From Branchiostoma floridae (taxonomy: Eukaryota > Chordata > Leptocardii > Amphioxiformes > Branchiostomatidae): DNA of 64,000 bases. The stretch is from positions 24,042,939-24,106,938 of the forward strand of contig NC_049985.1 of NCBI RefSeq assembly GCF_000003815.2, read 5' to 3'. Positions 17,101 through 20,100 of this stretch are shown here, in pieces. The position numbers were made by a program, and so were the translations under genes. How positions within the stretch are numbered: position 1 is the first letter of the stretch; every line of letters begins with the position of its first letter. The notes under the pieces are model-generated. The model was not told the origin of the DNA. It did no database searches and was given only the letters and a program-made list of their open reading frames with translations.

Positions 17101-20100
17101 GGCTAAATGGGACCATCTACACAAGTCCATTATAGGTACTGATATAATAAACATTATACATTTATGTTACAATTTTAAACTTTATATCTGCACACAAAAT
17201 AAAGCGCTTACCAGCAAGCTTTTGATCAGTTCTTATCACGTCGAAATGACCCAAAGCCTATATCTAGACCGGAAGTGTGACGTCAGCAAAGGGTCAAAGG
17301 TGCTTGGAAGTCGGTATTGGCCCCCGTTATCCATTTGTTAAAAATGTCAACAGATGTGATAGGCGCTATATATATATATATTGAAAACGTAAAGCCATAA
17401 CTACACAACTTCGATATATTTTAAATGAATTTCAGTAACACAAACATACAAACTGTGATGAAATGCCATAATATAAATTACTTAACAGAAATGTAGTCTG
17501 TGTAACGCAAACTCCGCTATCCGGAGCTTGTAGCCTCCTCCCCGCGGATGGGCGCGGCAATGTAGAACGGGCCTAAGAAGCGCGATTAAATCAGGCTGAC
17601 AGAAATGGTCGTAATTCTTTTTCTTGCATATTTCTAGGAATGTTGGACTTTGGCCTTTTCGGTATGCCCTACGTGAGTAACGTTATTTTTTACTATTTTA
17701 CATATGGACAATGTACAAATGTTACACCTACCGTAAAGCCGCATATAATGTAAATTATGTTGTATGATATAATAAAATGTACACACCATGGTGTACTCAC
17801 TGTAGTAGCTTTAGAAGTATAACGTTACGTTAGTTACATTTTTAATCGTAACGCCAGGAGTAACGTTACTCAGTGAAATTTTCCATTGTTCTCAATTAGT
17901 AGTGATTTTACTAGCCAAAATATTGATCTCTAAGCAACTATTGGAAGGGATAATCTTAACGTTTTCCAAGCTATAGCTGCCCATTTCTGTCACTACCTAG
18001 TCTTACCAAAAGTGGCTATCCCCTGCTTGAGCTTTAGTTTTCTAAAGCTTGAGTTTTCATTTCTAGGTTGGCGCAGACATCTGTGGGTTCTGGGACGACT
18101 CGACCCCTGAACTTTGTCATCGCTGGATGCAGCTAGGCGCGTTCTATCCCTTCAGCCGGAACCACAACTGGGAACAAGGCGCGGTAAGTTCAACAGCGCC
18201 ACCATTTTGATTCTCACAACCGTTCTCGTTCCCAGGTGGGTGCGGACATTTGTGGATTCTTCTTTGACGCTTGGCCGGAGCTGTGTCAGAGGTGGATGCA
18301 GTTAGGAGCGTATTATCCGTTTAGTAGGAATCACAACTGGGTTCTGGGTGCGGTAAGTATAGTGAGGCACGGATACGCAGCAGCAAGTATGACGTTGTCT
18401 CCATTTGTGGAGAGTTTGACTTTATTAGTCTGTGACCAGAACCTCTGGTCGACAGACTTTTAGTTTTGTCACGTTTACGCGCGTTCGCAGCTGTATCTAT
18501 ATGTTCTCGCTATCTGAATCCTATGTGGTTTGGTAGGTCCTCTGTACTGAGGTTGACGATGATGCACGTGATTTCTTTTTTGCGGCAGGTGGTTTTATTA
18601 TGGATGTTATAAAAATAGCACCCCTACAAAATGTTCGTCTTCCGGTGTATTGGTCCAGATCCTCTGCATGTGGGTCATGATGTAATCGGATATTGTCAAG
18701 CAGATGCGTGGTGTTATCTGATCGTCAAAGTTATTCGCGTTCGCATCTGTATTTGCATGTTCCCGTTGTCGCATACGTACGTTGTTTGGCAGGTCCTCTG
18801 CACTGAGGTTGACGATGATGCACTTTTTTTTTTTCGCGGCAGCTGGTTTTATTATGGATGTATAAAATATCACCCCTACAATTTCTTCGTCTTGTGGTGT
18901 TTTGGTCCAGGGCCGCTTTGTTTGAGCCTTGCCATAATAAAATATAGCAAGCAGATGCGTGGTTTTATCTGATCGTCAAAGTAATTCCCGTTCGCATCTG
19001 TATTTGCATGTTCCCGTTGTCGCATACGTACGTTGTTTGGCATGTCCTCTGCACCGGAGGTTGACGATGATGCACTTTTTTTTCACGACTGCTGGTTTTA
19101 TAATTATGGATGAATAAAAATATCACCCCTACAATTTGTTCGTCTTACGGTGTTTTGGTCCAGGGCCGCGTTGACAGTTGTTCACCTTTCTCGAAATATG
19201 TTGGATTATGATTTTACTATACATACAAGTGGACAGTTGTTCACCTTGCTCGAAATATGTCAACATCTGTGACCAGCTGTGACCAGCTCTTCATGTTGTC
19301 AACCACAGCTGCGACCAGCTGATCATGATATGTTTGACAACCTCGATCTATGAACTTTGAATATGACAGTATCTCCTATTTATTGTTAATTTATGTAGCT
19401 CCGGGCCAATGGCCATTTATGTTTTAAAGGAACATGGTTGGTACTTTTATTATGATAATGCTGTCATCATATATACTTGTACCTTCAGCCTCTTGTTATG
19501 GTTGTAATAATGTCAGAAACCCAAGTTTGCCAAGACTAGCCTAAATAGACAAAGCTGGCTGAACGCACTACACGATGAAGCGTGTAAGCCATATCATGAA
19601 TTATAAAATTACATCAAGGTCCTGTTCTGTGCTTCATACTTATTACGTCCATAACAGAAACATGTTAGTACTTGGTGCGTTTGTCAGTCTGCCTGTCGGT
19701 TTTGTAGCACTTGCAGGTGTGTCTTCTGTGTACGTGTCTGTGTATTAGACCATCCGGTTACTTATTGTCACCATAACTTTAGACTTTGACCACATGTTAT
19801 CTCACAATCCATACCTCTTTAACATTAAGATTCACATTGACACAGACATATTAAGCAACTTTAAATAAAACGATATAGTTAACACCATGAAAAGAATCAT
19901 TATAGGATATAAGCGCAACGTCACACACCAAAGAAGACAAAACAAGCAACATATACCAGACCGACGTCACAGACTATGTTACCTACGGTCACTTGTTCGA
20001 ATTGCAACAGGGACAATACTATGTGGACACTGGGAAACTGACTAGCGGAGGGTCTTTCTATTTAAGTTTGTCTGTTTGTTATTCAATGTTATGCGTTTCC

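Follow-up and report, generated by a model that had tools for sequence, protein, structure and literature searches.

The authors of the coq-2 study have called it rare that a splicing choice rebuilds an enzyme's core and changes its substrate (PMC7434440). In coq-2 the internal exons 6a and 6e have equal length (134 nt), lie in the enzyme core and are mutually exclusive, and the choice between them switches the substrate. In C. elegans this is backed by RNA data and by experiments in which the exons were removed, and the pair is also known from other helminths, annelids and molluscs (PMC7434440). The same source cites CYP4F3, a cytochrome P450 with reported tissue-specific use in which splicing switches the substrate specificity, and mrp-1, whose exclusive exons originated independently in several lineages. 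In OGDH exons 4a and 4b are kept exclusive by experimentally mapped branch points that sit only 25-41 nt away from the upstream donor; the choice alters calcium sensitivity and not a substrate pocket (PMC7969005). Among GH31 alpha-glucosidases, splice forms named N2 and N20 are mentioned for mouse CtMGAM, which is of the same subgroup as the gene described below (PMC7658089). Another report suggests the loss of a last exon, not an exon pair (PMC8063059). Lancelet genes are also known to carry 'mirages', local tandem duplications at exon-intron borders (PMC3087553). Splice-switched enzyme pockets are thus already known (coq-2, CYP4F3), and our literature search on amphioxus and on GH31 and alpha-glucosidases, from which most subscription papers were absent, found no exon pair in GH31, in agreement with what the sequence-only reading of this DNA had supposed.

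The window, i.e., the whole stretch of 64,000 nt of Branchiostoma floridae DNA that was analysed, located at C7:24042939-24106938, holds a GH31 alpha-glucosidase gene in which exon 16 occurs twice. The explanation that best fits the evidence as a whole is that the two copies, 16a and 16b, are mutually exclusive and give isoforms with different substrate preference; we put the probability of this reading at roughly 0.74. The pair would resemble coq-2 in having two equal-length internal exclusive exons in an enzyme core, with a substrate switch that is proposed here from the sequence, in another enzyme. The following features of the window are used below.

4962-21605, + strand: GH31 alpha-glucosidase gene, 19 modelled exons including 16a, plus 16b; the model ends at 21605
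14804-14866, + strand: exon 10, 63 nt, phase 0, exactly one exon for the 21-residue Ct-type insert
17002-17135, + strand: exon 14, carries HWLGDNT
17638-17672, + strand: exon 15, 35 nt
18067-18183, + strand: exon 16a, 117 nt, phase 0-0, after AG, ends NWEQGA, then GTAAGT
18184-18235, + strand: gt-ag spacer between 16a and 16b, 52 nt
18213-18217, + strand: CTCAC, branch point predicted by consensus scoring, with the branch A at 18216
18236-18352, + strand: exon 16b, 117 nt, phase 0-0, after AG, ends NWVLGA, then GTAAGT
20619-20767, + strand: exon 17, the common downstream exon of the gene model

The gene model was built from splice sites and paralog conservation and covers the exons up to 21605. 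Its product consists, in this order, of a trefoil, an N-terminal galactose-mutarotase-like domain, the GH31 TIM barrel and the start of the C-terminal domain, with Pfam matches to Trefoil, Gal_mutarotas_2 and the second and third GH31 domains. PF01055 reached 363.4 bits against a cut-off of 23.5. WIDMNE, which we take to be the nucleophile motif, and HWLGDN of exon 14, presumably the acid/base motif, are both present and both aligned to MGAM. The assignment made from the letters alone, to a GH31 alpha-glucosidase, agrees with these matches. The product scored 838 bits against CtMGAM (3ton), 733 against NtMGAM (2qly), 719 against SI and at best 640 against GAA. For the two-unit MGAM chain 9kz6 the second unit scored 833 and the first 711. 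In an unrooted gene tree computed without exon 16, the window gene, three further lancelet genes (C7n, C7d and C327) and CtMGAM grouped together at 99%. By these comparisons the gene is a GH31 alpha-glucosidase of the C-terminal maltase-glucoamylase (CtMGAM-like) type with putative enzyme activity. The insert encoded by exon 10 aligned without gaps to 3ton and faced a 21-residue gap in 2qly; it has been suggested to form extra CtMGAM subsites for longer substrates (PMC10268404, PMC3341394).

Beyond the end of the model, tandem repeats of 77 bp (9 copies) and 80 bp (3 copies) occupy positions 22075-22955. Their unit codes for a 15-residue peptide or a related sequence and holds CAGGTAAGT, and the repeats probably represent a mirage of that GH31 exon which follows position 21605. 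Further downstream, within an open reading frame of the + strand, positions 28432-28518 encode the beginning of an HMG box (KRPLNAFMVWSRVRRAK; E 5e-7, covering 29 of the 69 positions in the profile), which presumably marks a SOX-like gene.

The anatomy of the pair was re-derived exactly as first described: two 117-nt exons in the same phase, 52 nt apart, each with its own acceptor and GTAAGT donor. Our recount also gave the same figures, i.e., 31 of 39 residues are identical, 17 of these 31 use different codons, and 8 residues differ (exon residues 9, 10, 12, 13, 18, 26, 36 and 37). At the nucleotide level 82 of 117 positions are identical. 16a and 16b are thus neighbouring homologous exons, equally long and compatible in phase, each with its own splice sites, as is expected of a mutually exclusive pair. 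A frame check across exons 14-18 found an open frame with 16a alone and with 16b alone; with both together the frame is open as well (117 = 3 x 39). In a search within the retrieved GH31 loci, 16a matched 16b at E 2e-20. Searches of the whole genome (513-Mb assembly; match counts are lower bounds) found the exon 16-17 peptide in at least 21 places and the 16b peptide in at least 11 places, the latter in nine loci that are all GH31 genes by their gene models. Because of the E 2e-20 match and of these at least 11 places, all in GH31 genes, the likeness of 16a and 16b is not due to chance. Unmerged alleles, whether a haplotype or an assembly artefact, were ruled out as a source of the pair, as the nucleotide divergence of 30% is too large. 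No second genomic place for window 17600-18400 appeared among the 40 candidates that were scored out of 347. The intron after 16b contains a 251-bp tandem repeat (18421-19173); among the 40 scored out of 347 candidates, 39 places elsewhere in the genome were 90-98% identical to 18421-18700, and the repeat is dispersed and probably young.

The nine loci with the motif exon are the window gene, C13, C7n, C7d, C327, C5, C12a, C12b and C12c. Among the at least 11 places matched by the 16b peptide, only the window gene and C13 have two places per locus; the other seven loci have a single copy. In eight loci the motif exon follows a 35-nt exon and measures 117 nt (six loci) or 120 nt (C7d and C327, which are near-copies of each other); in the ninth locus, C13, the two exons are fused. 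Further GH31 places were found on C1, C2, C8, C10, C15, C19 and C12 near 6.5-6.9 Mb; among the loci retrieved from these, C1 alone gave a match to the peptide of the exon, and this match was weak (E about 0.001). C7d (C7:23053500-23063400) and C327:9500-19081, a small contig, carry near-identical GH31 genes with 6 synonymous and 0 amino acid changes in exon 16, and the C327 gene is perhaps the other haplotype. We also searched 109 of the 150 modelled exons, those of the near-copies C7d and C327 being among the loci, against their own loci for self-duplication (E 0.01). A full second copy occurred only for the window and C13 exons. Partial exon repeats are many in C13, and C12c gave one weak 22-residue match on the opposite strand. 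The two C13 copies are 38 nt apart:

C13:22066030-22065879, - strand: copy 1, fused exon of 152 nt (35 + 117), phase 1 to 0
C13:22065840-22065689, - strand: copy 2, fused exon of 152 nt (35 + 117), phase 1 to 0

If only one copy is used, whichever it is, the frame stays open across the downstream exons of the model. When both are joined a stop occurs two codons into the second copy, and when both are skipped the frame shifts and stops appear. Since joint and no inclusion both give stops, one-at-a-time use in C13 is demanded by the coding, as far as the modelled frames go. The first copy reads VGPDICGF; human NtMGAM (2qly) reads the same, so the proline is no sign of decay. Elsewhere in the C13 gene (22061000-22075000, - strand) tandem arrays repeat parts of its own exons at spacings of about 39-98 bp. 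Part L010 contains SYGVFLLNSNAM, SVIRQYWEVI and YPMMPPYWALGFHM; part L009 contains YPTDSNTWGVDTQF, a CCATACCTG/gtgagt edge and RNHNDRPNR. These arrays resemble the mirages that have been reported for Adh3 and for globin genes of lancelets (PMC3087553).

Between 16a and 16b the nucleotide differences are distributed 6/6/23 over the three codon positions (chi-square p 0.00026), and 9 of 11 four-fold sites differ. The proportion of synonymous differences pS is 0.95, i.e., saturated, and dN is 0.15. For the C13 pair we obtained pS 0.83, dN 0.22 and codon-position differences of 8/8/23, with 17 of 29 identical residues encoded by different codons. As pS is high, dN low and the differences are skewed towards codon position 3, both copies in each pair are, judged by these substitution patterns, long held as protein. 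The same had been concluded for the window pair from the codon differences, and the saturated synonymous sites and the dN of 0.15 agree with it. These data bear on the reading that one of the two exons is dead or cryptic and the other alone is used. Exon-edge duplications in lancelets are reported to be harmless to regular splicing (PMC3087553), and several such repeats occur in the C13 gene, which would fit that reading. However, acceptor, donor and frame are intact in both 16a and 16b, nonsynonymous changes are few, and each copy is identical to the neighbouring paralog C7n at 28 of 39 residues, so neither decays faster. The other C13 repeats are moreover partial exon copies, unlike 16a/16b and the C13 pair. 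We therefore consider a dead exon improbable.

In order to judge the spacers we used the introns of the gene models, which comprise 141 introns and 150 exons across the nine loci. An intron was called reliable if both flanking exons scored >2.0 per residue against the reference; 90 introns, including those of the window gene itself and of the near-copies C7d/C327, were kept and 51 were dropped. The reliable introns have a minimum of 130 nt and a median of 529 nt, far above the spacers of 52 and 38 nt. Eight of the 141 modelled introns are shorter than 70 nt (42, 42, 45, 47, 54, 56, 64 and 68 nt). Nearly all modelled introns <140 nt outside the 90 lie beside stretches without a visible reference match, being forced either at an end of the gene or across the 21-residue insert; a C13 intron of 122 nt among those dropped may be real. 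Relative to the 90 introns the 16a donor and acceptor scored at the 84th and 47th percentiles and those of 16b at the 84th and 29th, and for C13 copies 1 and 2 the acceptors scored at the 91st and 89th and the donors at the 76th and 20th (the second donor is weak); these percentiles are rough, as are the branch-point scores, because the scoring matrices were approximate and the aligner favoured high-scoring sites. The predicted branch A at 18216 is 32 nt from the 16a donor and 19 nt before exon 16b, and the branch point predicted by consensus scoring in the 38-nt C13 spacer is 14 nt from the donor. With spacers of only 52 or 38 nt, any branch point between the paired exons is close to the donor. 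Spliceosome assembly is reported to need about 50 nt between donor and branch point (PMC5740500, PMC7969005).

These numbers argue against the joint inclusion of 16a and 16b, which would add 39 residues to the barrel. The preserved frame in the window gene speaks for it, as does a human intron of 56 nt that is spliced (PMC8363638). The spacers are nevertheless far shorter than the 90 reliable introns, and the same layout in C13 is unreadable with both copies. Joint inclusion would also double one strand-helix-strand unit within the (beta/alpha)8 barrel. We regard it as very improbable. The earlier statement that a 52-nt intron is near or below the practical splicing minimum is weakened by the human 56-nt intron, so length by itself does not settle the matter; the shortest reliable intron of the nine loci has 130 nt. 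One-at-a-time use, as proposed from the sequence alone, was strengthened by the C13 pair, although in the window gene itself joint inclusion keeps the frame. For the window gene we infer exclusivity from the analogy to C13, the short spacer and the fold. Mutually exclusive use of 16a and 16b, taken over both readings of their function, is on these sequence features highly probable.

The proposed mechanism would be as follows. In a Ct-type GH31 alpha-glucosidase one ancestral exon, 117 nt long, would have been tandemly duplicated into 16a and 16b, and exon 15 would join either 16a or 16b, followed by exon 17. Joining of 16a to 16b would be blocked by the 52-nt spacer, in which the predicted branch point is ~32 nt from the 16a donor, less than the ~50 nt needed. 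The branch point before 16b would serve the distant donor of exon 15, and 16a would reach exon 17 by skipping 16b, from which one-at-a-time use follows. This is the mechanism reported for OGDH 4a/4b (PMC7969005), with branch points that are predicted here.

Each isoform would keep the invariant pocket residues and swap the loop-7 residues after CGF together with the residues after RNHNW. We numbered the exon residues by a match to human GAA, in which query positions 2-98 correspond to 632-728 of chain 9gsv_A (952 residues) at equal lengths. Exon residues 4, 8, 9 and 33 are D645, F649, L650 and H674, so the sequence-only reading had placed these four GAA residues correctly in the segment. In GAA numbering, 16a and 16b differ at 650, 651, 653, 654, 659, 667, 677 and 678, of which the first four come right after CGF in loop 7 and the last two just after RNHNW; the invariant residues equal to D645, F649 and H674 are kept in both copies. 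H674 and F649 are contacts of the -1 ligand, and the spellings L650, Leu650 and Asp645 are absent from the accessible part of that source (PMC5653652). In a fungal enzyme Phe624 is located at +1, and Phe625 beside it is the conserved counterpart of a phenylalanine in loop 7 of CtMGAM that is likely behind the long-chain preference (PMC10268404). By mapping, exon residue 9 would be this loop-7 Phe. It is Phe in 16b, as in CtMGAM and C7n, and Trp in 16a, as in C7d. The copies 16a and 16b scored 135.9 and 138.7 bits against CtMGAM, 120.1 and 117.3 against NtMGAM and 119.5 and 112.6 against SI. Thus 16b is 2.8 bits nearer to CtMGAM and 2.8 bits farther from NtMGAM than 16a. Both window copies have an aromatic residue 9, and their CtMGAM and NtMGAM scores shift by only 2.8 bits, so any change at the subsite may be modest. 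The two enzymes would differ at subsite +1 and beyond, which would result in a different chain-length or linkage preference.

When 8 other lancelet copies and 3 human rows are compared, 20 columns are variable, and seven of the 8 differences fall into these. The divergence there need not be adaptive, because the differing columns vary across the GH31 family, and this is also a point for the reading that 16a and 16b are mutually exclusive and functionally equivalent, kept by drift or tissue-specific expression alone. Against equivalence stand the low dN with saturated synonymous sites and the location of the differences at pocket-side loop positions. At five of the 8 positions the two C13 copies differ from each other too (hypergeometric p 0.016, a value partly due to the family-wide variability of these columns). 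Equivalence is rather unlikely in our view, and a different substrate preference of the two isoforms is plausible from the position of the swapped residues.

We then asked whether the window and C13 pairs go back to one duplication or two. The duplicated unit is the 117-nt exon in the window gene and the fused 152-nt exon in C13, and the two genes are in separate parts of the unrooted gene tree. On the 117-nt alignment, pairing the copies across genes costs 13 lnL relative to a tree that pairs them within each gene. A single ancestral duplication shared by both pairs is disfavoured by this difference, though the AU test, with p-values of 0.0999 and 0.0904 for the across-gene pairing, does not reject it. 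As the duplicated units differ, the gene clades are separate and the other seven loci are single-copy, two independent duplications are favoured by these comparisons. The nucleotide tree joins 16b to C7n at 57%; a window duplication older than the split from C7n, followed by loss in C7n, would be a possible alternative. The odds that the same exon is duplicated twice among 13-19 exons are about 1 in 13-19 by a rough reckoning. With two events only, the evidence for recurrent duplication of this exon is suggestive. By analogy, a mirage-type duplication is a plausible source of 16a and 16b, although mirages copy exon edges and not whole exons and reportedly leave regular splicing undisturbed (PMC3087553). 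Tentatively, and at somewhat less than even odds, the GH31 loop-7 module may be a repeated target of exon duplication, with two well separated lancelet genes each having independently gained a splice-selectable pocket exon.

Structures have been solved for human GAA, MGAM and SI, and each residue of the swapped segment can be assigned to its counterpart in them. If mutually exclusive use with different substrate preference is true, exon duplication would offer a second way, beside gene duplication, to widen carbohydrate digestion. Vertebrates gain digestive specificities by gene copies, as in the Nt and Ct units of MGAM and SI; the lancelet would gain them by splicing and not only by gene copies.
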